From Bacillota bacterium (GTDB lineage: Bacteria; Bacillota_A; Clostridia; Tissierellales; Peptoniphilaceae), in assembly GCA_023418535.1 (NCBI GenBank), contig JAEZZN010000132.1, positions 1 through 16,422 on the forward strand: a DNA stretch of 16,422 bases. Reading direction: 5' to 3'. Positions 1-16,422 of the stretch are shown here, one piece after another. Made by a program: the position numbers and the translations under genes. Position 1 is the first letter of the stretch. Each line of letters starts with the position of its first letter. A model generated the notes under the pieces. It made no database searches, had not been told where the DNA came from, and saw only the letters and a list, made by a program, of their open reading frames with translations.

Positions 1-508
1 TTAATTTAGCATCCAAGTTTGAAAGAGGTTCGTCCATTAAGAATACTTGTGCATCTCTTACGATAGCTCTACCTAAAGCCACTCTTTGTCTTTGTCCACC
101 TGAAAGTTGTTTTGGTTTTCTATCTAACAATTCTTCTATTTCAAGAATTTTAGCAGTATTTTTTACTCTTGCGTCAATTTCTTCTTTTGATAATTTAGCA
201 ATCTTTAAACCAAATGCCATATTATCATAAACTGACATATGTGGATAAAGAGCATATGATTGAAATACCATAGCTATATCTCTATCCTTAGGTGATACAT
301 CGTTAACTAATTTTCCATTGATGTATAATTCTCCACCTGATATCTCTTCAAGCCCAGAAACCATACGTAAAGTTGTTGTCTTCCCACATCCTGAAGGACC
401 TACAAATACTATAAACTCTTTGTCTTTAATATCTAAATTAAAATCATAAACTGCTTGAAAACCGTTGTCATAAATCTTTTGAATATTATCAAACTTTAAT
501 GTTGCCAT
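1..508 (-). CDS. ugpC: UgpC/MsmK/MalK-type sugar ABC transporter ATP-binding protein (C-terminus cut off by window edge)
   Basis: This is the cytoplasmic ATPase of a CUT1-type carbohydrate importer. The visible 169 residues are the N-terminal half of a family whose members are usually about 365 residues; the TOBE/regulatory half lies outside the window. All nucleotide-binding motifs are present: Walker [10 protein letters not shown] (about 37-45), Q-loop VFQSYALYP (Q83), signature LSGGQRQR (135-142), Walker B VFLMDEP (155-161) and D-loop SNLDAKL (163-169). The ATG at 508 has an AGGAGG ribosome binding site (515-520) six bases upstream. In Firmicutes one such ATPase often serves several sugar importers (MsmK in streptococci), so it may energise uptake of the glycans cut by the enzymes encoded just upstream. 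No permease or binding protein is visible here, so the substrate is inferred from context. A glycerol-3-phosphate role, implied by the name UgpC, is not supported by the neighbours. Confidence 0.93.
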
Positions 509-874: not shown

Positions 875-3800
875 CTATACAAAGTATTCAATTATTTTAT
901 CTATAACTTTTGTTCCTGACGTTGCTATAAGTTGAGTTGCCGGGAACTCTTGTGTTCTCGTTTCAACCATAAAGCTCTTTGATTTTAATAAAGAATCATT
1001 TGCAGATTGAGTTAAATCTTCAATAACATCTTTATCATAATCCATTCTTTCATATAAATATCTTTCTAGTAAATATTTAGATGTTAAGGATTTGTAATAA
1101 AGTGAACTTATATATGGATGTAAATCTTCTTTCAGACCTTCAAACTTTGTAAGTTTTAGGTAATTTTCTATTGAATTCATTATATTTTCAAATCTTTCAA
1201 TCAATTCTTTTAGATAATACTCATATTGATTTGAATCATTTTCTATTCTAATTAGAAGTTCTTCGAATAGTTTTTGTATCTCTTTAGATTCTTCTAATCC
1301 TTCAATTCCGCCATTGTCAGCACTTGACATATGAGTTGCTATTTCTAAAAGATAGTCTGAAGTTTCACTTTCAATGTGCTTAAATGAATCTCTCCATGAT
1401 TTTTCATAATCAAAACTTTCTGTATTCCAACTATAATCACAAGTTTGGAATATAGCAGGAAACGAAGCATAAGCCTCTTGCATTGGATTTGTGATCGTAC
1501 CTACAATATTTATAACACCTTTGTGATACATCTCGGCTTTACCCATAAATACACGAATAGTCTCTTTCCTATCTATATCATTTACTGGCCAATTCATCCA
1601 AAATAGAGGATCTCTTCTAAATCCAATCTTTGTATCTTTAGTCTTAAAACCATTAATTGCAGATTGAGTAATAGGAGCGCAGGTAATATCTCCTGTAAAC
1701 ATTATTTGCACATCATTTGGAAATTCTTTTGAATAAATATCAAGTTCATCTGCATCAAAGCCCCAATCAGCTAATACATAACTAGCTGGTACAAATACAA
1801 AGTCATAGACATCTCCCTTTTCACTTCCCCATTTTGAAACTTCATTCATTACTCTTACTACCGTTTCTTTAGGAAGTTTTCCTACATCATCTCCAAGAAC
1901 TCCAAATTGTCTTACTCCACAATCGTAAAGTTGATTAAATTTATCTAAAAGTTTAACTACACTTTCTTCAAAATTATCTTCATCAATAGGACTTGAATCT
2001 TTCTTAAATGGAGAAATTGTCCATACATATCTTGTCTTTATTGATTCTCCAAGCCTTGCAAGTTTTGAAATTTCTTCAAGTTCTTCTTTTGGATATAATT
2101 CATACCATTTATCTCTATGATATGGATCATCTTTTGGAGCAAATATAAATACATTCCCTTTAACCTCTGACATAAATTTCATTATATCTGCACGTTTTTT
2201 ATTACCCCAAGGAATACCATAATATCCTTCAATTACACCTCTGATTTTTTGATTCGCAAAATCTTGTATTTCTAATTTTCTAAGTAATTTATCACTTCCT
2301 ATTTGAGATAATACTTGACCAAGAGTAAGTAGTGCATAGTATGCAGCATCATTATTTACAGCTACTATATCTATTTCTTTATCAATATTTAATTCATAAG
2401 CATCAAATTCACTTGAAAACTCTTCATCGATTTTGATATTTACCTTTAATTCACCTTCGCCATATTTATCTATTAACGAATTAAGTTTAGCCTCAACATA
2501 TTTATCAATACAAGTATCTCCCACAGATAAACCATTAAATTCAATAATTTTATTTAAATAATTTATATGTTGAACTTTTGGAACTATATTATATTCGAAA
2601 TTTTCATTATCTTTATTGAATACATCTAAATTAAATTCTCTATACACAATCTCTATCCTATCTCCATTTAAATCGGTTGCTCTTTCATAAGCTATCGCAA
2701 ATCTATCTTCAGATATTTGTTCAATACTTGAATATCCAAAGAATCCTTGTTCTAGTAAATAGCTATTTACAAATTTAAATTCTTCTCCATCAAATTCTAG
2801 TAGATTTATCTTTCCATTCAATCTTAAGAAATTACCATTTGTAGATGGTGCTGAAACTAATAAATATTCCTTTCCTTCTTTTTCAAAAAGTAAAGTACCC
2901 ATTTGACACCAGGATTGAGCTTTAAAATCTACATCTCTAGTACGATTTCTAAATGATTCTCCATTATCTTTTGAGACTATTTCTTCAAAAGTTCTTGGAA
3001 GTCCTGTTTTATAGTTTCTAATTATAAGTCTTAAATCTCCATTTGCGTGTTTTACAAGTGAAGATTCCCCAGTTTGATATGTTTCGTTATAAGGCTCATT
3101 AATATTTATAACTTTTTCATTAACTATTCTTTCATCATTTATAGAAGCTTTTCTTTCCCAAGTTTTACCTTGATCATCAGAAACAATTAAACATGAAGAT
3201 TGTCTATTATTTTTATCTGTGAAATACGCTGGAAATACCAATCTTCCATCATTAAGCTCATATCCTCTCGATGGTGACACACCCATAAATCTCATATAAT
3301 CTTCTTTAATATATTTATTTAACATTCTAAGATTTTCCCAAGTCTTACCATCATCGTCCGAATGTGTAACAAGTATATGACTTACTTTTCTAAGCTCCAA
3401 TGGACCATTTCCTACAAATATATTTCCAAGCATCATATCTCCATGGAAAATATCTCCCATCCTCTTAAATGGTTGGTTTTCATCAATAAAGATGGTAAAT
3501 GAAGTATCTTCTCCATCCATAGTTTTAACTTTATTGCCATCAAGATATAATACTTCTCCATTTTTGTCTAAAAGCTCTAAATATTTTTTCCCATTTACTT
3601 CTACATATCCACTTCCATGTTCACCACTTGTATCAAAATATCCATCAGAATTTGGAAATGCAGTTACAAATAGAAATATTCTACCTGTAGTCTTACTTTG
3701 CAATATTGAAGAATCTATAGTAAAGCCTGAAACTTCATTGTCTTTAATGTCTGGTAAATCAATAACTCTTACTTGTTTATCGAAATCTTTTCCTTTTTCT

Positions 3801-5662
3801 TTTCTTCTTATTATAGTATCTATATCTCCCCAGTCCATAATGACATTGTTTCTTCTATCCGAAACTAAAAGTAAAGTATCATCAATAGTTTTGTATAGTA
3901 ATGGAATTCTATAAAACTTTGAATCATCCATTCCTGGATAATATAAAACTTCGGGCTCAGTTATAGCATTGTTAGGAAATAAATCTTTATTCTTTTTTAC
4001 AAGTTTTTCTATGAATGGATTAATATGCAATGTTCCACTTTCTGTCTTAAGAATCCTAGACCTATCAGGATTTACATATATATAATGCTTATTAGATTCA
4101 TTTAATTTTTCCATTCCTGCATCGTATAAATATTTTGATAATTTCTTATTTTCACTATAGGAATCAATAGAATCAATTAGATAATTTGCAGCTTCTAACT
4201 TTTCTTTTAAATTTAGTACAAATGGTTCTAAATCTTTTTTTAGTTTTTCATTTTCTGCAAAATCTAAATATCTTAAGCATGAATCAATAATATATTCAAA
4301 TTCCTCTTTAATTTTTTCTAAATTTGCATCATCAATATCTTTAGATAATAATTCTTTAATATCTTCTGATTCTTCAAGACCATAAATTCCTTTATCATCT
4401 TGATTTGACATATGACTTGAAATTACTCCTAATTCATAAGTCATATCAGATTCAAGAATATTCAGTGCTTCCTTATGATTTAAAGTACTATCAAATGCTT
4501 CGATATTCCAACCATAGTCAGAAATCCCAAATAATGCAATAAGTGAAGCATATGCTTCTTGCATCGGATTAGTAAGCGCCCCATATAGATTGTCTACCAT
4601 ATTATCTAACATTGACATCTTGCCAAGATGAAGTTTTCTGTAATCAGGATCTATATCATTAACAGGGAAATTTAACCAGAAGAGTGGATCTTTTCTTACT
4701 AAACCATCGCTATCTTTTGTCTTATACTCATCTAAATCTTTTTTATCAATAGGTGCACAAACTTTTCTACCTGTATGGAATAGATGTACATCATCTGGAA
4801 ATTCTATTTCATATGCATTGATTTCTTTTGCATCCCAAAATTCTTTGCTTAAATTATAGGCTCCAGGACAATACACAAAATCTCTGACATCATCTTTCGT
4901 CTTTCTCCATTTTGAAAGCTCATTCATCATCATTACTGGAATTTTTGGATCAAGTCCTCCGACATCATCTCCAAGAACACCAAACTGTCTAACCCCTACA
5001 TTATAAAGTTGCTCAAATTTAGCAATTATTTTTTCTATTGATTCATCAAAATTATCTAAATTTATAGTTTTTTGGTAAAATGGTGCAATTGTCCATACAA
5101 AATAGTTTTTATATTTATTGCCTTGCTTTGCAAGTTTACCTATTTCTTCTAATTTTTCTGCATCATATAGTTCAAACCATTTTTCTCTATGATATGGATC
5201 ATCCTTTGGAGCATAAATAAAAGCATTATTTTTATATCTACCACCAAATTCGATGATATCCATTCTTGCTTGAAAACTATATGGAATTCCATAATAACCT
5301 TCAATCATTCCTCTCATTTTAAGTGATGGATAGTCTTCTATGCTTAATTTCTCAATCTTATTACTATCAAACTCAAGCAATCTTTCAATAGTAACAATAG
5401 CATAAAATGCCATATCTTCATCTGAAGCTTTTATATTTACTTCATTAGAGATATCTATTTTATATACATTATCTAAATCTCTATCAATTTCAATATTTAT
5501 TATTAATTCTTTTTGTCCATTATATCTAGATTTTATTTCATCAATTTTTTCAATTATAGCTTTATCGTCAATATCATTTATATTAAACTTAATATTGTCA
5601 AAATCTATAAATTCATCATGATATACCATTTTTTTTGGCGTTGGGTAAATCCTATTTTCCAT
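875..5662 (-). CDS. Cytoplasmic GH84-GH33-GH84 fusion: two beta-N-acetylglucosaminidase units flanking a sialidase
   Basis: The 1595-residue product has three predicted catalytic units. Unit 1 (about 1-555) has a GH20b-like N-terminal fold (YPTPKKMVY to about 97), then a GH84 barrel: RGMIEGYYGIP (117-127), APKDDPYHREKW (151-162), the acidic pair D232-D233 in FGVLGDDVG, FPVND (332-336), NPMQEAYAS (365-373), then a helical region. The central unit (about 565-1012) is a GH33 sialidase: YRIP (R585), D602, Asp boxes SDDDGKTW (768-775), SDDQGKTW (828-835) and SKDNGESF (897-904), E866 and R882 sixteen residues apart as recalled for NanI, probable third arginine R947 and Y977. Residues about 645-760 resemble the irregular insertion domain of NanA/NanI-type sialidases. 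Unit 2 (about 1026-1595) repeats the GH20b-GH84-helical layout with RGVIEGYYGIP (1141-1151) and D1258-D1259. No signal peptide, membrane segment or sorting motif is seen, so it should act in the cytoplasm on Neu5Ac- and GlcNAc-terminated glycans. The start overlaps the upstream galactosidase gene by 11 bases. GH84 proteins are often misnamed hyaluronidases; exo-beta-GlcNAcase is the better call. Confidence 0.93.
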   Translation of the reverse strand: MENRIYPTPKKMVYHDEFIDFDNIKFNINDIDDKAIIEKIDEIKSRYNGQKELIINIEIDRDLDNVYKIDISNEVNIKASDEDMAFYAIVTIERLLEFDSNKIEKLSIEDYPSLKMRGMIEGYYGIPYSFQARMDIIEFGGRYKNNAFIYAPKDDPYHREKWFELYDAEKLEEIGKLAKQGNKYKNYFVWTIAPFYQKTINLDNFDESIEKIIAKFEQLYNVGVRQFGVLGDDVGGLDPKIPVMMMNELSKWRKTKDDVRDFVYCPGAYNLSKEFWDAKEINAYEIEFPDDVHLFHTGRKVCAPIDKKDLDEYKTKDSDGLVRKDPLFWLNFPVNDIDPDYRKLHLGKMSMLDNMVDNLYGALTNPMQEAYASLIALFGISDYGWNIEAFDSTLNHKEALNILESDMTYELGVISSHMSNQDDKGIYGLEESEDIKELLSKDIDDANLEKIKEEFEYIIDSCLRYLDFAENEKLKKDLEPFVLNLKEKLEAANYLIDSIDSYSENKKLSKYLYDAGMEKLNESNKHYIYVNPDRSRILKTESGTLHINPFIEKLVKKNKDLFPNNAITEPEVLYYPGMDDSKFYRIPLLYKTIDDTLLLVSDRRNNVIMDWGDIDTIIRRKEKGKDFDKQVRVIDLPDIKDNEVSGFTIDSSILQSKTTGRIFLFVTAFPNSDGYFDTSGEHGSGYVEVNGKKYLELLDKNGEVLYLDGNKVKTMDGEDTSFTIFIDENQPFKRMGDIFHGDMMLGNIFVGNGPLELRKVSHILVTHSDDDGKTWENLRMLNKYIKEDYMRFMGVSPSRGYELNDGRLVFPAYFTDKNNRQSSCLIVSDDQGKTWERKASINDERIVNEKVININEPYNETYQTGESSLVKHANGDLRLIIRNYKTGLPRTFEEIVSKDNGESFRNRTRDVDFKAQSWCQMGTLLFEKEGKEYLLVSAPSTNGNFLRLNGKINLLEFDGEEFKFVNSYLLEQGFFGYSSIEQISEDRFAIAYERATDLNGDRIEIVYREFNLDVFNKDNENFEYNIVPKVQHINYLNKIIEFNGLSVGDTCIDKYVEAKLNSLIDKYGEGELKVNIKIDEEFSSEFDAYELNIDKEIDIVAVNNDAAYYALLTLGQVLSQIGSDKLLRKLEIQDFANQKIRGVIEGYYGIPWGNKKRADIMKFMSEVKGNVFIFAPKDDPYHRDKWYELYPKEELEEISKLARLGESIKTRYVWTISPFKKDSSPIDEDNFEESVVKLLDKFNQLYDCGVRQFGVLGDDVGKLPKETVVRVMNEVSKWGSEKGDVYDFVFVPASYVLADWGFDADELDIYSKEFPNDVQIMFTGDITCAPITQSAINGFKTKDTKIGFRRDPLFWMNWPVNDIDRKETIRVFMGKAEMYHKGVINIVGTITNPMQEAYASFPAIFQTCDYSWNTESFDYEKSWRDSFKHIESETSDYLLEIATHMSSADNGGIEGLEESKEIQKLFEELLIRIENDSNQYEYYLKELIERFENIMNSIENYLKLTKFEGLKEDLHPYISSLYYKSLTSKYLLERYLYERMDYDKDVIEDLTQSANDSLLKSKSFMVETRTQEFPATQLIATSGTKVIDKIIEYFV

Positions 5663-5673
5663 TTGCTTCTCCT
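5652..5673 (-). promoter_or_regulatory. Overlapping stop/start with an internal ribosome binding site (translational coupling)
   Basis: The galactosidase stop codon (5654-5652) lies inside the first codons of the GH84-GH33-GH84 gene, whose ATG is at 5662-5660. AGGAG (5673-5669), six bases before that ATG, lies within the last codons of the galactosidase gene. This fixes the downstream start and suggests coupled, roughly equal synthesis of the two enzymes. Confidence 0.8.
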
Positions 5674-8600
5674 AGTTTAATATAGTAAATCCTTTCTGTT
5701 AGATTTGCTTCATCTATTACAATTATTCTAAATTCTCCATCTATTTCTTCTGGTTTTATAATTGTATAAGATGCATTATTGGTAACTTTTACGTCTATCT
5801 CTGGTATATAATTAGTATTTATATGATAGACTCTTTTCTCTTTATTAAATCCTTCTAATTCTTTACCATCTATGAAAATTTCTAAATCAAAATCAAATTT
5901 AGATTTCGCAATATCTCCATATGCTTCAAGTTCACTTATACCAATAGCTCTATCTTCGCTAGCTTCCATATCAATTCTTATCGCAAAAGTTGAAACATCC
6001 TCGATTTTTATATTTATAAATCTATCATCTTCAAATTCTTCAAGTATTTTTACTTCTTCAAAATTCTCTAAATTATTTAATTCATGATTATCAGGAATAT
6101 TTGCATAATTGTTTGGAATTGTTATTTCATTTTTTGTGAAATATCTAATCGTAAATTTATCTGGTTTAGCTGTTTCTTCATCTTCAAAAAACGCAATTCT
6201 TATATTGGAAATACTATGTTTTTCAAGTTTTCCAGCTCTTCCAAATATTATTCCAACATAATCATCTGGCCTTTTTTCTTTTGAAATATTACTCCATCTA
6301 TCTATATAATTTTTATCATATGAAGTAACTCCATTATTTATTGCAAGAATTGAATCTTCTCCATCTTCATTAGTGTATGATGCAAATCCAGCTGGAATTT
6401 CTGATCCATTCCATGCTTCGGCGTAATTATAGCTTCTAATTACATCCATACTCTCTCTTAAATAAAGCTTTGATACAAACCCGTCAACTTTTGCTTCATA
6501 TTCTAAATCAGAAATTTTATCCCATTTTTTTATTCTCTTTTCTATCTTCTCTCCATTTAGATTGTAAATCTCAGTTGAAAGAGGTAGTAAAGGTTCTAAT
6601 CCTTCTTTTATTGCCATTGAAAAATTTTTGGCTTGTACAAATTTGTCCTTTGTTGCTTCAGCTGTTGAAATTTCCTTATCAGATAAATCTATATTAATTT
6701 CATCAATAAGCTTTTCTTCAAAATTTTTCTTTTCTTCTACTGCTTGAAGTTCAATTATAGCTTTTTCTAAACCTTCTGATTTTGCTGTCACGCTAAACTC
6801 GTCTTCAAATGGTTTTATAATTATTAAACCCTTACCACTAAATGCTTTTCTTCTAAATTTTCCGTTTTTATCAGCCTTATATCTTTCTTGTGATGCAGCA
6901 TTTCCATTATCTACACCTAATATTTCACAACCATAAGCTTCAAACTCTACTAAATTATCTGCTGTTGGTACAAGATTTCCATCTTTATCAAATATTTCAA
7001 ATATTACAAATGAAGAATTTCCTTTTAATATTTCGCTATCTTTCAAAAGATTAATCTTATAAGCATCTCCAGATGTTACGACTTTATCTGAAGCGATTAA
7101 TTTTTGATTTGTTTTTAAATCATCACTATCTTCAAATGCTTTTGCTTCTAAAACTCCAGCTTCATATGGAACTAGCCATTCTAGATAAAGTTCATCTTCT
7201 TTTTCACCCTCATAATATTTAAATCCATATGAAGTTGTTTTTTCGTTGAAGGATTTTACTCCTTGTGATTTTCCATTTAAAAATAGTTCTGCATTCTTTA
7301 AGTTTGAATAAACTCTTACAGGAATTTTATTATCATCTCTTTTAATATCTGTACCTTGTTCTTTTAACTTTTCTCTATCTTCAAAATTCCAATGCGGAAG
7401 GATTTTTATAAATGGATCTTCTTTTTTATCTACCCATTGAGATTTGTAAAAATAGTAATCCATTTTTGGTAATCCACATGTGTCAAATATTCCAAAATAT
7501 GATGATTTAGATGGTGCGCCAAGATTTTCTTCATTGTGCCAAGGTGTTGGTTCCCCGATATAATCGAAACCAGTCCATATAAACTGTCCAGCATACGCTT
7601 TATTATCCCTATCATGTATCCATGATTGAATCGCAGTTCTACCCCATCCCACTCTATCATTTCCATAATCGGACATTTGATATTTTCTATTTGGTTTGTC
7701 AGGACTTCCTGTAGCAATATTATCTTTTTTTGCAGGATTATAAAATACTCCTCTACTCTTAACTGCTGACGATGTTTCAGCTCCATAAATTAACCAATTT
7801 GGTCTATTTTCTCTTATCTCATCAAAATTATGTTCAGAATAATTTAATCCTACTGCATCGTGTAAATCTGAAGTTTTAACATGAATAAAATCACCAAATT
7901 TACCAACAAACCCATTTTCTCCAATTGTAGTGTATCTAGAATCATCAATCTCTTTTATAGCATCAACTAAGAATTTTGTTAGTTCTATTCCATACTCAAC
8001 CTTAGTCTCCCAAATTTCATTTCCAGTTGACCACATAATTATTGATGGAGAATTAATATCACGTTTAACCATTTTCTGGATATCATATTTAGCCCATGTA
8101 ATTTCATTTTCAAATTCATCTTTTGTAACTTGTTTGTGGAAAAATCTATTATAGTCAAATTCTTTTTTTCTATTTCCACTCCATGTGTCAAACGCTTCTT
8201 CTATCACTAAAAATCCCATTTCATCACATAATCTTATAAATTCTCTTGATTGTGGATTATGTGATGTTCTAATAGCATTTACACCCATATCTTTTAGTTT
8301 TTTTAGTTTTCTAATTTCTGACGGAGTATCTTGAATAGCTCCTAAAGCTCCATTATCATGATGCAAGCATACTCCTTTAAATTTAATATATTTGCCATTT
8401 AAGAAAAAGCCTTCTTCACTATCCCAATCTATATATCTAAATCCAAATCTTGTAATCTGACTATCTATTATTTTTCCTTCAGATATTAATTCCGCCTTTA
8501 AATAATATAGATACGGATTTTCGATACTCCATAGATTAAAATTCTCAATTTCAAATTTGCTTTCAATTATTTTTTTGGAGTGTTTTTCAATATTTATTTC

Positions 8601-9254
8601 TTCTGTTTTTTCTAATAAAAGTTCTTCATTATCTTTATTAATGACTGAATATTTAACACTGAATCTTTTATCAGTAGAATATTTATTATTTATTAAAAAT
8701 GATACGTTTTTCTTTGCGTAGTTATCGTCAATAAAATCATCAGTAATTTTTGTTTCATCATCTTCTATAAATAATTTATTTCTTACAATTAATTCAACAT
8801 TTCTGTAAATTCCAGATCCTGAATACCATCTTGATGAAGGTTGTCTATGTTCAACTTTTACAAATAATTCATTTATACCTTCATGTACGAAATCAGAAAT
8901 ATCATAATATTGATCTAAATATCCAAATGGATAATTTCCTAAAAAATGCCCATTTATCCATACACTAGAATCCATGTAGATTGCACCGAAGTGAATTGTA
9001 ATATTGTTACCAATTATATCTTTATCTATATTAAAACTTTTCTTATAATATCCAAATCCACCATCAATTAATCCGCCTTCATTTCTTGCTAATGATTTTA
9101 TATTGAAATCTAAATATATGCTCCAATCATGAGGTAAATTCACACTTTGCCATTTATTTGTTGTGTCAATCCATTTTGAAAATTCTTCAAAAGGCATATC
9201 TTCCCCTCTAAAGAACTTCCAATCTTTATTAAAATCCAAGTATTTTTTAGCCAT
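5652..9254 (-). CDS. GH2 beta-galactosidase, BgaA-like, without secretion signal
   Basis: The 1200-residue GH2 enzyme is predicted to release terminal beta-galactose from host glycan antennae. The order is: N-terminal sugar-binding jelly roll (about 1-158, with NLPHDW and SSRWYSGSGIYRNVEL), Ig-like domain (about 160-275), and TIM barrel (about 280-610) with FKGVCLHHD, IRTSHNPQS, acid/base E413 in STGNEIWE and nucleophile E493 in YGAETSSA. Beta-sandwich and Ig-like domains follow (about 640-840). A discoidin/CBM71-like region (about 925-1113) contains PAGFASYTNED, DRWSNI and FGRAGKLEKHSISN, recalling pneumococcal BgaA. A C-terminal Ig-like domain covers about 1120-1195. BgaA is secreted and wall-anchored, but this protein starts MAKKYLDFNKDWKF and ends without LPXTG or a hydrophobic tail, so it is predicted cytoplasmic. 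The ATG at 9254 is preceded by AAGGAG at a good distance. It is the first gene of a two-gene operon with the GH84-GH33-GH84 fusion. Linkage specificity cannot be read from the sequence; beta-1,4 is inferred from BgaA similarity. Confidence 0.93.
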   Translation of the reverse strand: MAKKYLDFNKDWKFFRGEDMPFEEFSKWIDTTNKWQSVNLPHDWSIYLDFNIKSLARNEGGLIDGGFGYYKKSFNIDKDIIGNNITIHFGAIYMDSSVWINGHFLGNYPFGYLDQYYDISDFVHEGINELFVKVEHRQPSSRWYSGSGIYRNVELIVRNKLFIEDDETKITDDFIDDNYAKKNVSFLINNKYSTDKRFSVKYSVINKDNEELLLEKTEEINIEKHSKKIIESKFEIENFNLWSIENPYLYYLKAELISEGKIIDSQITRFGFRYIDWDSEEGFFLNGKYIKFKGVCLHHDNGALGAIQDTPSEIRKLKKLKDMGVNAIRTSHNPQSREFIRLCDEMGFLVIEEAFDTWSGNRKKEFDYNRFFHKQVTKDEFENEITWAKYDIQKMVKRDINSPSIIMWSTGNEIWETKVEYGIELTKFLVDAIKEIDDSRYTTIGENGFVGKFGDFIHVKTSDLHDAVGLNYSEHNFDEIRENRPNWLIYGAETSSAVKSRGVFYNPAKKDNIATGSPDKPNRKYQMSDYGNDRVGWGRTAIQSWIHDRDNKAYAGQFIWTGFDYIGEPTPWHNEENLGAPSKSSYFGIFDTCGLPKMDYYFYKSQWVDKKEDPFIKILPHWNFEDREKLKEQGTDIKRDDNKIPVRVYSNLKNAELFLNGKSQGVKSFNEKTTSYGFKYYEGEKEDELYLEWLVPYEAGVLEAKAFEDSDDLKTNQKLIASDKVVTSGDAYKINLLKDSEILKGNSSFVIFEIFDKDGNLVPTADNLVEFEAYGCEILGVDNGNAASQERYKADKNGKFRRKAFSGKGLIIIKPFEDEFSVTAKSEGLEKAIIELQAVEEKKNFEEKLIDEINIDLSDKEISTAEATKDKFVQAKNFSMAIKEGLEPLLPLSTEIYNLNGEKIEKRIKKWDKISDLEYEAKVDGFVSKLYLRESMDVIRSYNYAEAWNGSEIPAGFASYTNEDGEDSILAINNGVTSYDKNYIDRWSNISKEKRPDDYVGIIFGRAGKLEKHSISNIRIAFFEDEETAKPDKFTIRYFTKNEITIPNNYANIPDNHELNNLENFEEVKILEEFEDDRFINIKIEDVSTFAIRIDMEASEDRAIGISELEAYGDIAKSKFDFDLEIFIDGKELEGFNKEKRVYHINTNYIPEIDVKVTNNASYTIIKPEEIDGEFRIIVIDEANLTERIYYIKLGEANGK

Positions 9255-9476: not shown

Positions 9477-9502
9477 AAAAAAACGAGGATTTTATTCCTC
9501 GC
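9477..9502 (-). terminator. Rho-independent terminator of the GH92 mannosidase gene
   Basis: A 6-bp stem, CGAGGA (9484-9489) with TCCTCG (9496-9501), extended by a G-U pair, has a 6-base loop. On the minus strand it is followed by seven T (9483-9477). It starts just after the mannosidase stop codon and separates that gene from the galactosidase operon. Confidence 0.88.
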
Positions 9503-9508
9503 TTTTCA

Positions 9509-11617
9509 TTAAACCTCAGGTACAATTCCTAAGTTAAATTCAATATTTGTTGCATTCACTAATTTTTCATAGCTTATCTTATTTTCTATATATTTTTCAC
9601 CATCAATATACAAACTATTTACAAATTTCTTATGATGATAATTTTCATTCGTATTGATTGTAAGCGTATTACCATTATCTAAATGAATTTTTGCTTCATC
9701 ATAAAAAGCAATTCCTAAGTCATATATATTGCTTCCTGGACATGTTGGATAAAATCCAAGACTTGATAATATATACCACGCTGAAAGAGACCCATTGTCC
9801 TCATCACCTGGATATGCATCAAAATTAGGTCTAAAATAATTTAATAATAATTCTTTAATTATTATCTCTGTCTTAAATTTCTTATCTACATAATTATATA
9901 AATAAGGCAAATGGAATGATGGCTGATTTGAAATAGCTATATGACCAAAATGTGCTTCATAATATTCACGCATCTCGTGTATAGTTTGATTGTAATGTCC
10001 TACATCGAATTCTGTCTTTGAATTTGCAATTTCATCCAATCTCTTTTCAAATTCTTTCTTTCCACCAAACTCTAAAATAAATGCATCAAAATCATGATAC
10101 ATATTATAACTATTTTGATAAGCCGAACCTTCCGTATATGGTGATCCCCATGCTAAAGGATTAAATTCTTTTGCAAATTCTCCTTCTTTAGTTTTTGCTC
10201 TTAAGAATCCAGTCTCTCTATCAAATAATTTTAAATAATTTTTCGATAAATCTTTGTACTTTTCGTAAATATCTTCTTTGTTTAAATTCTTTGCTACAAC
10301 TGAAATAGAATAATCAGATAATGAATTATCTAAAGTTTGATTTACGGATTCATGTATATGGCTTGGAACATATCCATATTTAATATATTCATCTACGGCT
10401 GCCCTTCCATATCTAGCATCTCCTGAATCAGTTGTCGATGATTTTATCATCGCTTCAAGAAACTCCTCCATATATTCTTCGCCAATAGCTTTTGATGAAG
10501 CTTCAGCAATCACATTATCTACTAAGGTTCCTGGCATCAATCCTCTTTCATCAGGAGACAACCATTTCGGTAAATATCCAGTATTTCTATAACTATTCAA
10601 AACACCTTCCAAAATATCCTGGTATTGTTTTCTATCAATTAAAGAAAGCAGTGGAAATAGAGTTTTTCCAGCATCCCAAAAACCAATATTTGTAAATAAT
10701 TTTCCTTTTTTTACAGTTTTTGAAAATGTATCATAATGGATTTCTTCACCATCTTTATTTATTTCATATATTGTCATTGGGAATAAATGGCATCTATAAA
10801 GCGCATGATAAAAAAACTCAACTTGACTTTGTCTATCATACATTTCATATTTTTCATATTTTTTAGATTTTTCATTATTAGTAATTTCAAATCTATCAAA
10901 ATACTTGGTCCAAATATCCTTAGTTTCTTTTATCATTTCTTCCAAATTATTGTTTAACAACGAAAGATTATATATTGCTTGATCCGTAGAAATAAATGAT
11001 GTAGCAAATTTAAGTTCACATAAATTTTCTTCAGTCTCAACAATAAATGATTCTCCATTTTTCGTTAATTTAAATGAATCTATATCAAATGCAAGATACA
11101 TTGTAAAGTTTTCATCTTCACTTCCACTAAAGTTTGTAACTTCTCCGTATAATTTATTATCAACAACTTCAAGTTTGATATCCTTAAATAAAAACTTTGC
11201 CTTTTCTTTTGTTTCAAATCTTATTATTGCTCCATATTTTGAAGCGGACATTACCGCAGTTTCACCATTCATATAATCAATGATATTAAAATTTGGTCTA
11301 AATATTGATGAATATGGATTATATAATACATTTTCTTTCCCACTAAATGGAAGTATTACAAAATGTGAAAAATCCCCCATCCAAGGACTAGGCTGATGAG
11401 TAATCCTAAACCCAGAAAAATTTCTATCGTGTGGATTAAACCACCAAGAACCACCTTCCGGTCTTGTTTCAACAGCTATATAATTTTGACCATAAGGCAC
11501 TCCTGTATATGGAAGAGCATTACCATTTGAAAATTCATAAGCATTATTCGTTCCATAACGAGTGTCGGTAAATCTTTTATCTTCTAAAATTTCGTTTATA
11601 ATTTTTTTAATTTCCAT
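9509..11617 (-). CDS. GH92 alpha-mannosidase (SpGH92-like), cytoplasmic
   Basis: The product (702 residues from the chosen start) is a calcium-dependent, inverting exo-alpha-mannosidase of family GH92, predicted to release mannose from N-glycan cores or high-mannose arms. Signatures: FRITHQPSPWMGDFSH (about 70-85), IGFWDAGKTLFPLL (311-324), the long conserved run around GLMPGTLVDNVIAEASSKA (359-377), the catalytic acid in YTEGSAYQ (E496), and GDEDNGSLSAWYILSSLGFYP (604-624), whose D605/D607 match the family's base residues. The N-terminal DTRYGTNNAYEFSNGNALPYTG resembles pneumococcal SpGH92, an alpha-1,2-mannosidase (recalled). There is no signal peptide. A longer reading starts at 11641, but that ATG lacks a ribosome binding site. 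The ATG at 11617 has GGAG six bases upstream and gives MEIKKIINEILEDKRF. The gene is divergent from manA, which would process its product after phosphorylation. The exact linkage cleaved is inferred. Confidence 0.93.
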   Translation of the reverse strand: MEIKKIINEILEDKRFTDTRYGTNNAYEFSNGNALPYTGVPYGQNYIAVETRPEGGSWWFNPHDRNFSGFRITHQPSPWMGDFSHFVILPFSGKENVLYNPYSSIFRPNFNIIDYMNGETAVMSASKYGAIIRFETKEKAKFLFKDIKLEVVDNKLYGEVTNFSGSEDENFTMYLAFDIDSFKLTKNGESFIVETEENLCELKFATSFISTDQAIYNLSLLNNNLEEMIKETKDIWTKYFDRFEITNNEKSKKYEKYEMYDRQSQVEFFYHALYRCHLFPMTIYEINKDGEEIHYDTFSKTVKKGKLFTNIGFWDAGKTLFPLLSLIDRKQYQDILEGVLNSYRNTGYLPKWLSPDERGLMPGTLVDNVIAEASSKAIGEEYMEEFLEAMIKSSTTDSGDARYGRAAVDEYIKYGYVPSHIHESVNQTLDNSLSDYSISVVAKNLNKEDIYEKYKDLSKNYLKLFDRETGFLRAKTKEGEFAKEFNPLAWGSPYTEGSAYQNSYNMYHDFDAFILEFGGKKEFEKRLDEIANSKTEFDVGHYNQTIHEMREYYEAHFGHIAISNQPSFHLPYLYNYVDKKFKTEIIIKELLLNYFRPNFDAYPGDEDNGSLSAWYILSSLGFYPTCPGSNIYDLGIAFYDEAKIHLDNGNTLTINTNENYHHKKFVNSLYIDGEKYIENKISYEKLVNATNIEFNLGIVPEV

Positions 11618-11627
11618 TTCTATCTCC
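11617..11627 (-). promoter_or_regulatory. Ribosome binding site fixing the GH92 start
   Basis: GGAG (11627-11624) lies six bases before the ATG at 11617. The two upstream in-frame ATGs (11641 and 11629) have only AT-rich sequence before them. Confidence 0.7.
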
Positions 11628-11652
11628 ATTTTTATATTCATATATATATTAA

Positions 11653-11746: not shown

Positions 11747-12703
11747 ATGGAAATTTTAAAATTAAAACCTGCCCTTAAAGATTATTTATGGGGTGGAAAC
11801 AAGTTAAAAACTATTTATAATAAAGAATCCAATTGGGATATAGTTGCAGAATCATGGGAACTTTCTGCCCATAAAGACGGTTTATCAATTATTGAAAATG
11901 GTGAATTTAAAGGTTTAACTCTTGATAAATATTTAGAAAAAATGGGAAATAAAGTAATCGGAAATGAATATACAAAAGATAGATTTCCTATTCTAAATAA
12001 AATAATAGATGCAAATCAGTCACTATCAATTCAAGTACATCCTGAAGATAAATATGCAAACGAAAATGAAAATGACAATGGTAAAACAGAAATGTGGTAT
12101 ATAATCGATGCTGAACCAGGTGCATATTTATATTATGGGGTTAAAGAAAAAGTTGCAAAAGAAGAATTTAAAGAAGCAATTGAAGAAGGAACTCTTCTAG
12201 ACAAATTAAATAAAGTAAATGTTCATAAAGGTGATGTATTCTTTATAGAAGCTGGAACAATTCATGCCATTGGAGAAGGTATACTTATTTATGAAGTTCA
12301 ACAAAGCTCAAATGTTACCTACAGAGTTTATGATTATAAGAGAAAAGATAAAGATGGAAATGAAAGAGAACTTCATATTGAAAAAGCTTTAGAAGTTTCA
12401 AATCTTAAACCTAATGGACAATACAATTTCGATGATAAAAACAATATAAACTCTTCTCTTACAAGACTAGCAAAATCAGATTATTTTGATGTGTTAAAAG
12501 GTCAAGTAGATGACTGGTCTTACACAATAACTGAAGAATCCTTCCACGCTATAACTTTCCTAGAAGGAAGTGGTGAAATTTTAACTCATGGACCTTCTTA
12601 TAAATATGAAAAGGGAGACACATTCTTTATTCCTGCAAATAATAATGAATATAAAATCAGTGGAACTGGAGAATTTATCCTTTCTAGATTACCTATTGAA
12701 TAG
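11747..12703 (+). CDS. manA: Mannose-6-phosphate isomerase, class I (cupin type)
   Basis: This zinc enzyme interconverts mannose-6-phosphate and fructose-6-phosphate in the cytoplasm. The 318-residue length is normal for the short Firmicute type. The N-terminal KPALKDYLWGG and WELSAHKDGLS motifs are present. The zinc ligands can be read as Q96 and H98 (SIQVHPEDKYA), E115 (GKTEMWYII) and H173 (EAGTIHAIGEG). QQSSNVTYRVYDY (185-197) is the usual segment after the metal site and carries the active-site arginine (R193). The ATG at 11747 follows GGAGGA by three bases. It is a single-gene unit, with its own promoter and a terminator at 12767, divergent from the GH92 mannosidase. The pairing suggests that mannose released inside the cell enters glycolysis through this enzyme. 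A kinase for free mannose is needed and is not in the window. ManA may equally serve PTS-imported mannose. Confidence 0.96.
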   Translation: MEILKLKPALKDYLWGGNKLKTIYNKESNWDIVAESWELSAHKDGLSIIENGEFKGLTLDKYLEKMGNKVIGNEYTKDRFPILNKIIDANQSLSIQVHPEDKYANENENDNGKTEMWYIIDAEPGAYLYYGVKEKVAKEEFKEAIEEGTLLDKLNKVNVHKGDVFFIEAGTIHAIGEGILIYEVQQSSNVTYRVYDYKRKDKDGNERELHIEKALEVSNLKPNGQYNFDDKNNINSSLTRLAKSDYFDVLKGQVDDWSYTITEESFHAITFLEGSGEILTHGPSYKYEKGDTFFIPANNNEYKISGTGEFILSRLPIE

Positions 12704-12766
12704 AAATTTACTAAAATAGATATATTATGAGCTGAATTCATAAACACAGAATAATTTAATAACATC

Positions 12767-12822
12767 TAAATCGGAATGTAATTTACCATCAACATCTAAC
12801 ATTCCGATTTATTTTTGTTTTT
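12767..12822 (+). terminator. Rho-independent terminator of manA
   Basis: A perfect 13-bp stem, TAAATCGGAATGT (12767-12779) with ACATTCCGATTTA (12799-12811), has a 19-base loop and is followed by TTTTTGTTTTTATTT. It lies 63 bases after the manA stop codon. Confidence 0.88.
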
Positions 12823-13146
12823 ATTTCTTCGTTTTATAATTTAATACAGTATTATATTTCTATAATTGTAAAAATAAATTATTTTTATCAAGATCTATTT
12901 CACATATATTAGTTTATTTTTCATATCAAATAACACAATACATCTATCGAAATACAGCTAAAATCTATTGTTATTCAATAAAACTTTATTATAATCCAGA
13001 ATTAACACATAATTAAATTATAGTATTGATATTAGTATCGTGATAAACAAAGCAATATATCAACATATACAAATATCGTGAGATTTAAATTTTATTAGAT
13101 CAATAATAGAGCAAAGGGATCCAATTTTAATTTATAAGGGGAGTAA
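12823..13146. other. AT-rich intergenic stretch upstream of the ABC pseudogene; no gene seen
   Basis: No open reading frame with a ribosome binding site and no RNA gene is recognisable here. The octamer TATCGTGA occurs twice in the same orientation (13036-13043 and 13074-13081), a possible pair of operator half-sites. AAGGGGAG (13136-13143), just before the pseudogene ATG, looks like its ribosome binding site. I could not find a convincing promoter. Confidence 0.5.
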
Positions 13147-15261
13147 ATGCTAGAATTAAAAAATATTTCAAAACATTATAATGTAGCTGGAAACGATTTT
13201 ACAGCACTTGATAATATAAATCTAAAATTTAGAAAAAAATGAATTTGTTTCAATTCTTGGACAGAGTGGTTCTGGTAAGACAACAATGTTAAATATCATT
13301 GGTGGTTTAGATAGGTATAGTAGTGGTGATTTAATCACAAACAACACATCTACCAGTACATATAGCGATAGAGATTGGGAAATGAAGTTGATCTAACAAA
13401 CAAAAATAAAACATCCATGTCATTTTTTACCGCCCTATCACTTAGTTTTAACAACTTGCTAACTAAAAAGGCTAGAACCATTCTTACCGCCTTTGCAGTA
13501 AGTATAGGTATAATCGGCATATCTCTTATTTTGTCACTTTCTACAGGAGCCCAAGATTATATTGATAGAATACAGGCAGATACTTTGACAATGTACCCAA
13601 TTACTATAGAAGATAATTCTATAGACTTGTCTTCTTTACTTGAACTTCAATCAAATAATAGTGAAGATAAAGAGGATGATGATAAAAAAGATAACAAGGT
13701 TATTACAACTAAAAATGTGACAACTCAAATGCTTACTGGTATGCAGGCCTTTACTGGAACTACAGAAAATAACTTAAATAAATTTAAAAAACATATAGTG
13801 AATAATAAAAATGAATTAGAAGATTTAACTAATGCAATTGATTATGGCTATAATATAAACTTAAATCTGTATAATAAAATAGATGATAAGATAACAAAAT
13901 TAAATCCTTTTGAATATATAGATAATCCTGCGGAATATGCTGGTTTTGCTAGAACTTCTAGCAATCAACCCCTTAATGCATGGGAAGACCTTTTAGGAAA
14001 TAAAAATCTTCTAGAAAGCCAATATGATTTAGTTGAAGGTAAATGGCCTGAAAGCAAAGAAGAATTGGTTCTTTTTGTAGACAAGGATAATCAATTGTCC
14101 GACCTATCTCTTTACCAATTAGGACTATTAAACCCTAATGACCCTAAAGAAAAACAAGAAAAAATTTCCAAAGGTGAAGAAGTAGGAGAAGTTGATAGAG
14201 ATATTTCCTATGATGAAATTCTAAATCTTACATTTAAATATATACCTTCTGTATCATTTTATGAGAATAACAATGGTTCATGGATATCTAAGGAAGATGA
14301 CCAAGAATTATTAGAAAAACTATACGATGATGCGTTAGAATTAAAAATAATAGGTATTGTAAAAGCAAGTGAAAATTCTAGTGTGGAATCTGAGAGCGGC
14401 AAGGTTGGCTATACAAAAGAATTAACCAACTATATAATCGAAAGTGTTAACAGTAATAAAATAGCTAAAGAACAATTAGATAATCCAGAAATAGATGTAT
14501 TTACAAAGAAACCATTCTTAAAGCCAGGTGAAGAGATACAACCTGCTAAATTAGAAGAATTACCAGACAATATAAGAGCATATGTTTCTACTTTACCAGA
14601 AAAAGAACAAAAAGAAGCTTTACTTAATTTTGCAGAGGCTTCAAAAAACACCCTTGAAGATAATCTTAAGACTTTGGGAATTGTTGATCAGGAAAGTCCA
14701 AATTTCCTAAATCTATATCTTAAAGACTTTTAGTCTAAAGAAAAAATAGATGATTTTATCAAAGACTACAATTCAAATATAGATGATGAAAATAACCAAA
14801 TTAAATATACAGATTTCGTTGGATTAATAATGTCTTCTGTAAGTAGTATAATCAATGTGATATCATATCTACTTATCGGATTTGTTTCAATCTCATTGGT
14901 AGTATCTTCTATAATGATTGGAATCATCACTTATGTATCAGTTTTAGAAAGAACAAAAGAAATTGGTATTCTAAAAAGTATTGGAGCTAGCAAAAAAGAT
15001 ATATCTAGAGTGTTTAATGCAGAAACCGTTATAGTTGGTCTACTGTCTGGTTCTCTAGGTATCTTAATTACAAGCTTATTAATATTACCAGCAAATAGTA
15101 TTATAAAGTCTTTAACTGGAGTCAATAATTTCGCTGTACTTCCTATTAAAGCAAGTCTACTGCTAATTTTATTAAGTGTTACACTTACACTGATAGCAGG
15201 AATAATTCCTTCCAGAATAGCAGCGAAAAAAGATGCTGTAGAAGCATTAAGAACTGAATAG
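13147..15261 (+). pseudogene. Decayed fused ABC transporter ATPase/FtsX-type permease
   Basis: The reading frame begins MLELKNISKHYNVAGNDFTALDNINL at 13147 and matches a single-polypeptide ABC exporter with an N-terminal ATPase and an FtsX/MacB-like permease. Three lesions are visible. First, an A7 run (13233-13239) has one base too many, so the frame stops at TGA 13240-13242; it continues in the next frame as [15 protein letters not shown] (Walker A, 13259-13285) to YSDRDW. Second, near 13371-13385 the ATPase jumps to the linker [11 protein letters not shown], losing roughly 170 residues including the Q-loop, signature and Walker B. Third, the permease frame is cut by TAG at 14731-14733, yet the next codons in that frame (SKEKIDDFIKDYNSN) are clearly its continuation, to the stop at 15261. 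The permease has TM1 (about 13474-13542), a large extracellular domain and a three-helix C-terminal part with SVLERTKEIGILKSIGASKKDI. Some permease pieces might still be made, but ATP hydrolysis is impossible. The original substrate is unknown. Confidence 0.9.
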
Positions 15262-15335: not shown

Positions 15336-15791
15336 CTATAAATTATCAATTGCTTCAAGCACTTCTTTCATATCTGGTCTTTCTGGCTTATCATATTCTT
15401 TGGACCAAATAACCACACCATTTTCGATTAATACATTTGCTCTTGCACTAATACCAGCTTTTTCAATATATATTCCTAATTCTTTAGCAACTGCACCCTT
15501 AGGGTTAAAATCTGCAAGCAATGGTGTTTTCTTAACTCCTATCGATAATCCCCAAACAGCTTTTGAAGGATGTGCGTCAACGCTCATTCCAAACGCTTTT
15601 ACTCCACGCTTTTCAAGCTCATCATGATATATCTCCAAATCTCTCATTTGATCTGTACATACTGATGTAAAAGCTAAAGGATGATAACTTAATAAAATTT
15701 TTCCTTCAACTTCACTTAAATTAACCTTTTCACTATTTTGGTCTCTTAATTCATAATCTAAATTTACTTTATCACCTTTTTTTACTATCAT
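15336..15791 (-). CDS. Peroxiredoxin, AhpC/TSA family, single-cysteine type
   Basis: The 151-residue cytoplasmic thiol peroxidase is predicted to reduce hydrogen peroxide or organic hydroperoxides. The family motif PxxxTxxC is seen as HPLAFTSVC: P38, T42 and peroxidatic C45. The conserved arginine is probably the one in SARANVLIENG. GMSVDAHPSKAVW and TPLLADFNPKGAVAKELGIY are the usual segments after the active site. C45 is the only cysteine, so there is no resolving cysteine in the chain; reduction must use an external thiol. The ATG at 15791 has a very strong ribosome binding site, AAGGAGG (15802-15796). The downstream terminator is shared with the convergent ABC pseudogene. The length and motif spacing are close to AhpE-like or BCP-like proteins, but I would not assign a subfamily. 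Confidence 0.92.
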   Translation of the reverse strand: MIVKKGDKVNLDYELRDQNSEKVNLSEVEGKILLSYHPLAFTSVCTDQMRDLEIYHDELEKRGVKAFGMSVDAHPSKAVWGLSIGVKKTPLLADFNPKGAVAKELGIYIEKAGISARANVLIENGVVIWSKEYDKPERPDMKEVLEAIDNL

Positions 15792-16214: not shown

Positions 16215-16422
16215 CTATTGACTTAATGCATCTTTAACCGCTGCTTTAATCGCATCAACTGTAACTGTAGCTCCTGCTACCCCATCTATTTCTAATGAGT
16301 TTGCTTCTACTATTTGTTGAGATGCTGTATCTTTTGCTGCTCCACCTATTTCTGGAGTTTCTGATTCTTTTACTACTTTTACTTCTGAAATCTTTCCACC
16401 TGATACTACAACTTCTACTTCT
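16215..16422 (-). CDS. FMN-binding domain protein, C-terminal fragment (N-terminus beyond window edge)
   Basis: The last 69 codons of a gene entering from the right edge read EVEVVVSGGKISEVKVVKES, then ETPEIGGAA, and end with NSLEIDGVAGATVTVDAIK, AAVKDALSQ and a stop at 16217-16215. This is the typical end of an FMN_bind (PF04205) domain. The threonine in the GATVT motif is where family members attach FMN through a phosphoester bond, usually outside the membrane with help from ApbE. Such domains occur in RnfG/NqrC, in urocanate/fumarate reductase-like flavoproteins and as repeats in surface proteins of anaerobic cocci. The fragment cannot say which. The third residue after the motif threonine region is V (TVTV) where TVTS is more common; this is a mild variation. 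Confidence 0.85.
   Translation of the reverse strand, partial: EVEVVVSGGKISEVKVVKESETPEIGGAAKDTASQQIVEANSLEIDGVAGATVTVDAIKAAVKDALSQ

Follow-up and report, generated by a model that had tools for sequence, protein, structure and literature searches.

Why would a bacterium join a predicted sialidase to two predicted N-acetylglucosaminidases in one polypeptide and give that polypeptide no signal for export? The question is raised by contig JAEZZN010000132.1 of assembly GCA_023418535.1, from a Bacillota bacterium, the whole 16,422-nt stretch of which is referred to here as the window. One of its open reading frames (ORFs) encodes a 1595-residue protein, P0001, with the domain order GH84-GH33-GH84. 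At a probability of roughly 0.72, we read this signal-less fusion as the cytoplasmic antenna-trimming enzyme of a predicted import system for complex N-glycans, because the fusion and the GH2 enzyme of the overlapping gene together cover sialic acid (Neu5Ac), galactose and N-acetylglucosamine (GlcNAc), and the remaining enzymes of the locus account for the mannose core. The closest genome to the window is that of Helcococcus sueciensis DSM 17243, with 94% identity along the entire fusion protein, which makes Helcococcus very likely the genus of the source organism.

Domain architecture and catalytic residues

The coding strand of the fusion gene is the minus strand (5662 to 875), which corrects an earlier note on this DNA made from its sequence alone. 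The gene and its units are as follows.

875..5662, minus strand: GH84-GH33-GH84 fusion protein P0001, 1595 aa (ORF list, Pfam, PDB sequence searches, homologues with the same order)
4088..5485, minus strand: N-terminal GH84 unit, residues 60-525 (gh84 profile 730 bits; PDB 6pwi 4.8e-86)
4964..4969, minus strand: D232-D233, predicted catalytic pair of the N-terminal GH84 unit (14/14 invariant, aligned with D1258-D1259)
2609..3949, minus strand: GH33 sialidase unit, residues 572-1018 (Pfam BNR_2/BNR_3; PDB sialidases up to 7.5e-62)
3833..3835, minus strand: D610, predicted sialidase acid/base (aligned to DWGD of Sialidase A; invariant 14/14)
3065..3067, minus strand: E866, predicted partner of the nucleophile (invariant 14/14)
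2732..2734, minus strand: Y977, predicted sialidase nucleophile (invariant 14/14)
974..2425, minus strand: C-terminal GH84 unit, residues 1080-1563 (gh84 profile 753 bits; PDB 6pwi 3.7e-98)
1886..1891, minus strand: D1258-D1259, predicted catalytic pair of the C-terminal GH84 unit (invariant 14/14)

Pfam and PDB sequence matches both recover the order that the earlier note had claimed. NAGidase/GH84 (PF07555) matches in two stretches (7.1e-162, 538 bits against a cut-off of 25), Glyco_hydro_20b likewise in two, and the middle unit is matched by BNR_2 (9.9e-13, 48.5 bits) and BNR_3 (8.8e-09, 35.6 bits), all above the gathering score. The profile limits of the three units are residues 60-525, 572-1018 and 1080-1563, the gh84 profile having been built from fusion-type units themselves. 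Each half taken alone matches GH84 structures, residues 1-575 reaching 6pwi at 4.8e-86 and BT_4395 at 3.1e-54, and residues 1020-1595 reaching 6pwi at 3.7e-98 with PF07555 at 1141-1439. A predicted structure of residues 1-1027 (predicted local-distance difference test score, pLDDT, 65.5; predicted template-modelling score, pTM, 0.49) was too poor for judging geometry.

In an alignment of 14 full-length fusion proteins (A1, which leaves out P0054 and the split forms described below), the mapped catalytic residues are invariant in every protein, so that all three units look complete. The acidic pairs D232-D233 and D1258-D1259 are 1026 residues apart, as the earlier note had stated, and fall in the same alignment columns. 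Invariant residues are D232, D233, K153, Y269, W329, N331, D336 and N365 in the N unit and D1258, D1259, K1177, Y1295, W1355, N1357, D1362 and N1392 in the C unit; the 19 GH84 positions mapped, whose roles we assume after NagJ/BT_4395, are invariant in both units of all 14 proteins with a single exception, a proline replaced by T in one of the C units. Both GH84 units are predicted to be beta-N-acetylglucosaminidases, and the idea that one of them is dead found no support, the mapped residues being kept in both. Only three positions are fixed differently in the two units (at least 13 of 14 proteins each): C265/V1291, N282/D1308 and K343/R1370. No linkage specificity could be read from these three, and the two units may serve different branch linkages.

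The middle unit matches the sialidase structures 2vvz ('Sialidase A', 7.5e-62) and 2vk5 (exo-alpha-sialidase, 4e-60), which we take to be NanA and NanI; the match to the anhydrosialidase 4x6k is weaker (1.5e-13) in the same kind of sequence search, in which E-values do not tell the product. Most of the sialidase motifs listed by the earlier note are present, namely YRIP, three Asp boxes (768-775, 828-835 and 897-904, by sequence reading), E866, R882 and Y977. The exception is D602, which is also invariant in all 14 proteins but lies elsewhere than the acid/base position. The predicted acid/base is instead D610, which stands within DWGD, 25 residues past the YRIP arginine R585, and aligns with the DWGD of Sialidase A, whose aspartate is presumably the acid/base. 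R585, D610, E866, R882, R947 and Y977 are invariant in 14 of 14, with roles assumed after NanA; R947, absent from the earlier list, is a candidate third arginine of the triad.

Predicted location in the cell

The N-terminus was judged by the best 12-residue hydropathy within the first 45 residues, a crude measure and not SignalP. The fusion reaches a maximum of 0.10, compared with 1.19-3.25 in 13 chosen control GH84 proteins (at least 1.85 in 12 of them), and the 20 proteins that combine GH84 and GH33 span -0.18 to 1.10. By eye, all eight multi-domain GH84 or GH85 frames longer than 700 aa that were listed begin with a clear hydrophobic signal. The fusion also has no LPxTG motif and no membrane stretch (top 19-residue hydropathy 0.96), and Pfam found no carbohydrate-binding module in it. 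The earlier claim that the protein has no export signal therefore holds by this crude measure. The oddity attached to that claim does not, for signal-less GH84 enzymes and intracellular sialidases exist: Spy1600 of Streptococcus pyogenes, a GH84 protein, is described without a signal (PMC2815779) and Bifidobacterium infantis has intracellular sialidases (PMC10298468).

An overlapping gene of beta-galactosidase type and a predicted import locus

The genes around the fusion that bear on its role are these.

5652..9254, minus strand: GH2 beta-galactosidase-type protein, 1200 aa, no signal-like N-terminus (Pfam; PDB 4cu6 1.1e-227; hydropathy)
5652..5662, minus strand: overlap of GH2 end and fusion start, 11 nt (ORF table)
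2..508, minus strand: ATP-binding cassette (ABC) ATPase, UgpC/MsmK type, cut by the window edge (ORF; first 50 residues are those of the gene in H. sueciensis locus L001)
9509..11641, minus strand: GH92 alpha-mannosidase-type protein, 710 aa, no signal-like N-terminus (Pfam; PDB 7fe1 1.3e-183, 5swi 2.3e-159; hydropathy)
11747..12703, plus strand: ManA, class I mannose-6-phosphate isomerase (TIGR00218 above cut-off)

The co-translation with a beta-galactosidase suggested by the earlier note agrees with the 11-nt overlap and with the best PDB match of the GH2 protein, the beta-galactosidase 4cu6 (presumably BgaA of S. pneumoniae). AGGAG precedes the fusion start, the overlap recurs in relatives (11 nt in H. 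sueciensis L001, 8 nt in genome G059), and translational coupling is likely.

The locus continues in the relatives. On H. sueciensis contig C13 the GH2 gene ends at 3938 and the fusion occupies 3928-8715, followed by the whole UgpC-type ATPase gene (L001 9037-10137; NF008653 above cut-off), a 230-aa membrane protein, a permease (PF00528), a second permease recognised by eye, a solute-binding protein (SBP), GH38 and GH125; locus L033 continues with a gene that looks RpiR-like by eye, a pair of ROK proteins and GH1. Genomes G059 and G069 have the same order, most members being recognised via matching N-termini; the G069 GH38 matches the same NCBIfam model as that of H. sueciensis, below its cut-off. 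The nearest solved SBP to the H. sueciensis protein, in sequence and in fold, is the pneumococcal N-glycan binder NgtS, so that we predict an NgtS-type N-glycan-binding protein here.

Two further genes of the locus deserve mention. Between SBP and GH38, G059 and G069 carry an extra GH110-like gene (L028 7324-8973, minus strand; L032 5588-7273, plus strand) that H. sueciensis does not have. The G069 protein matches alpha-galactosidases/GH110 entries (8yk3 2.9e-83, 7jw4 9.3e-37) and the G059 protein has the same GLAA-B domain. A role in taking off alpha-1,3-galactose caps would be consistent with animal glycans, and these genes may reflect adaptation to hosts that bear alpha-Gal caps. The 230-aa membrane protein (L001 10137-10829, plus strand) has no Pfam match; it resembles DUF624/YesL-type proteins by eye, and similar ORFs occupy the same place in G059 and G069.

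A proposed pathway and its rivals

Read together, these genes suggest a pathway in which a secreted GH85 endoglycosidase would release the glycan from host glycoproteins and an NgtS-like ABC importer would take it up with at least part of its antennae. Inside, the GH33 unit would remove sialic acid, the GH2 enzyme galactose and the two GH84 units antennary GlcNAc, after which GH92, GH38 and GH125 would remove mannose and the remainder would likely be handled by GH1, the ROK kinases and ManA. GH85 is over cut-off in all four relatives' genomes (H. sueciensis, G059, G060 and G069), and domain scans place it in GH85-GH84-GH20 (G069), GH85-GH33-GH20 (H. sueciensis) and GH85-GH84 (G060) frames, some of which run off contig ends. 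GH85 enzymes leave one GlcNAc on the freed glycan. NgtS is reported to bury that reducing-end GlcNAc (PMC5215778). The sialidase is kept in 4 of 4 genomes while sialic acid use is patchy, and uncapping is therefore a likelier common role for it than use of Neu5Ac. The wider locus of the relatives, with its transporter and mannosidases, strengthens the antenna-trimming machine that the earlier note had envisaged, while secreted parallel enzymes in H. sueciensis urge caution. A bolder version, to which we would give slightly less than even odds, is that whole sialylated complex N-glycans are imported through the NgtS-like transporter and stripped by one enzyme with three active sites together with GH2, the two GH84 units cutting different GlcNAc linkages.

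Several observations weigh against cytoplasmic antenna trimming. H. sueciensis secretes GH85-GH33-GH20 and GH2-GH84 proteins, the former being the second of its two BNR_2 proteins; G069 and G060 secrete GH85-GH84 proteins; and all four genomes have GH20 matches. H. sueciensis, at least, can therefore trim antennae extracellularly. The SBP shares just 18-19% identity with NgtS and has a predicted ligand, and since the window ends inside the ATPase gene, the transporter part is deduced from relatives. NanE is over cut-off in one of the four genomes (G059) and N-acetylneuraminate lyase is named in two (G059, beside a ROK kinase, and G069); neither was found in H. sueciensis and none is over cut-off in G060, in a set where G001 (H. 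sueciensis), G060 and G069 consist of many contigs. Release of sialic acid is therefore not always tied to its use. On the sialidase tree, five split versions of the protein are scattered over four or more positions between the 15 fused ones (four changes, forced by starred branches), so that a single polypeptide is not essential. The secreted set of H. sueciensis and the predicted SBP ligand are the main doubts.

The alternative that survives best, though we hold it unlikely, is that secreted enzymes do most of the antenna removal outside the cell and that the fusion finishes partly trimmed N-glycans slipping in. S. pneumoniae trims before import in this way (PMC5215778, PMC10154615), and H. 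sueciensis has secreted GH33, GH2, GH84 and GH20 domains, G069 and G060 secreted GH84. Against it, the sole BNR_2 (PF13088) protein over cut-off in each of G059, G060 and G069 is the signal-less fusion or its split form; a second BNR_2 sialidase was not found in these three, PF13088 covering one sialidase type and other families not having been searched. GH84 in G059 comprises just the two fusion units, with further ones in secreted frames in G069 (one) and G060 (two) and two beyond the fusion in H. sueciensis. GH2_C occurs once each in G059 and G069, in the locus, and once further each in H. sueciensis and G060, in secreted GH2-GH84 frames. In G059, a nearly complete 1.77-Mb contig without a second GH84 or GH2_C protein, the signal-less set is hence the sole GH33 (BNR_2), GH84 and GH2 found. 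The retention of catalytic residues in the fusion units also speaks against a minor finishing role. PF00704/GH18 is over cut-off in two of the four genomes, in frames of ~345 aa both times.

The giant secreted glycosidases lie at L036 6634-14859 (minus strand), L035 1-7899 (minus), L048 5729-12775 (plus) and L051 4928-11617 (plus), in the orders GH2-GH84, GH85-GH84-GH20, GH85-GH33-GH20 and GH85-GH84. N-glycan enzymes seem to have been shuffled in this group both outside and inside cells.

Rather improbable is a substrate of smaller sialyl-LacNAc oligosaccharides, such as O-glycan or milk-type fragments, in place of an N-glycan. The fusion and GH2 would fit any Neu5Ac-Gal-GlcNAc chain, and a milk glycan review places the B. 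infantis sialidases inside the cell (PMC10298468), but GH38 and GH125 in the locus, the adjoining GH92 in the window and the NgtS-like SBP all point to mannose-containing glycans. We give still less weight to the fusion leaving the cell by a non-classical route and acting on the surface. Surface display has been suggested as possible for its S. pyogenes relatives (PMC2815779), but the fusion shows none of the signal-like start, LPxTG, membrane stretch or carbohydrate-binding module sought above, whereas the four secreted proteins scanned have F5/8-type modules and signals. That a faulty assembly joined two or three separate genes, an idea in support of which nothing was found, can be dismissed, since at least 14 further same-order proteins, 44-95% identical to the fusion, come from several genomes and contigs in independent assemblies, the G059 copy lying on its 1.77-Mb contig; the window contains no N.

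Spread and ancestry of the fusion

Homologues came from two protein searches, one yielding 47 proteins at E <=1e-30 from 7995 scored candidates, the other 256 of 7988 at E <=1e-150, the best 120 of which were used; only candidates sharing exact words were scored, so distant forms may be missed. The pooled set of 166 proteins includes six from the window and 25 SBP relatives from an SBP search. Both domains occur in 20 of the 166: 15 GH84-GH33-GH84 (with that of the window), four GH84-GH33 and one GH33-GH84. The earlier note knew of no described enzyme with this order; at least 14 further proteins with it are in sequence databases, among the matches listed, and we found no description of a GH84-GH33 fusion or of a Helcococcus sialidase in the accessible parts of the open-licence literature.

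Among 249 genomes of the order to which H. sueciensis belongs, three carry the intact fusion (G001, G059 and G069) and G060 a split form; with only these four, the family seems to be limited to Helcococcus (H. sueciensis, and H. kunzii in split form) and relatives, some of them labelled Tissierellia bacterium. In G060 the same units are two genes with an ATGA overlap, and GGAGG precedes the second start. The split forms are best read, from their tree positions, as repeated fission; no partner gene was seen for P0020, P0021, P0055 or P0056. The H. kunzii protein P0055 (1068 aa) is GH84-GH33 and stops where the second GH84 would start; a separate GH84 gene is expected nearby.

Within one protein the N and C units are 40-48% identical. 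A GH84 tree of 67 domains, from which row copies (L029, P0022, L031, L012), nine further examples of a single secreted type (P0044-P0052) and any stretch scoring below 200 bits were dropped, separates N units and C units into clades supported at 100/99 each. A simple recent internal duplication was rejected on these separate clades and the 40-48% identity. In the best tree the two clades join different secreted GH84s (support 95/96 and 96/93): secreted GH2-GH84 proteins (G001; G060 P0063) and a 1232-aa frame of G037 fall with the N units, and secreted GH85-GH84 proteins of G069 and G060 with the C units. An approximately unbiased (AU) test does not reject a single joint clade at 5% (p 0.056), and for that reason we call it only likely that the GH84 duplication predated the fusion. 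The branching of the GH84 tree is broadly that of the sialidase tree, as expected if all three units were inherited together.

Other features of the window

GH92 and ManA lie upstream of the GH2-fusion pair in the window and on a separate contig, C25, in H. sueciensis, so the window shows a join without counterpart in that draft; in G060, GH92 and a GH2 share contig C67. Promoter scans of two gaps gave counts near chance, and a terminator-like site lies on the plus strand at 9484-9501, in the GH92-GH2 gap. The interval 12704-13374 has no listed ORF of 80 aa or more. On visual inspection, the same-frame ORFs at 13375-14733 and 14830-15261 (plus strand, about 100 bases between them) resemble the two parts of a single MacB/FtsX-type permease, the front part having a weak MacB_PCD match in Pfam. 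A 151-aa peroxiredoxin-type protein (AhpC-TSA, Pfam) lies at 15336-15791 (minus strand), and a protein end cut by the window edge at 16215-16421 (minus strand) resembles FMN-binding repeats by eye.

Comparison with known systems

As far as the accessible literature shows, the GH84-GH33-GH84 architecture is new; the enzyme families and cytoplasmic N-glycan-core degradation were already known. In the Gram-positive case known in most detail, stripping of complex N-glycans takes place on the cell surface, and the core then enters the cell. Should capped glycans instead be taken up and stripped inside, the released sugars would be withheld from neighbours; certain Gram-negative bacteria have been proposed to import first and degrade afterwards, and this would be a private counterpart of that scheme. 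Glycan analysis might gain a one-protein tool from the fused enzyme, and the repeated fissions supply natural controls on why the units were joined.

That Gram-positive case is S. pneumoniae, whose GlcNAcase StrH we take to be a GH20 enzyme. Its pathway (NanA, BgaA, StrH, EndoD, NgtS, SpGH92, SpGH38, SpGH125) has the same activities in the same sequence as predicted here (PMC5215778); the locus SBP is nearest to NgtS, and GH92, GH38 and GH125 are closely related to its enzymes. The pneumococcal sialidase, beta-galactosidase and GlcNAcase, however, are separate surface proteins and the trimmed core is imported (PMC5215778), whereas here the enzymes are signal-less and sialidase and GlcNAcase (GH84) form one protein within the transporter locus. 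Import of complex N-glycans before trimming has been proposed for Capnocytophaga canimorsus, with trimming in the periplasm (PMC5215778), and cytoplasmic core degradation for Cutibacterium acnes (PMC6160142) and S. pyogenes (PMC2815779). The S. pyogenes operon (GH84 Spy1600, GH38 Spy1604, GH1) likewise brings a signal-less GH84 together with GH38, GH1 and sugar transporters, but the accessible text names one GH84 and mentions no sialidase (PMC2815779). The C. acnes pathway similarly has signal-less GH38, GH125 and hexosaminidases with ABC transporter genes, although its sialidase and beta-galactosidase are predicted to be secreted and the part of the source available describes no fusion (PMC6160142). 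NanH1 and NanH2 of Bifidobacterium longum subsp. infantis are intracellular GH33 enzymes, for which the corresponding text describes no GH84 fusion (PMC10298468). SiaBb3 of Bifidobacterium bifidum (GH33-GH123) also places a sialidase and a hexosaminidase in one polypeptide for sequential action; its GH123 unit, however, is a beta-GalNAc-ase acting on Sda antigens, and it has one hexosaminidase unit in place of two flanking GH84 units (PMC12856340).
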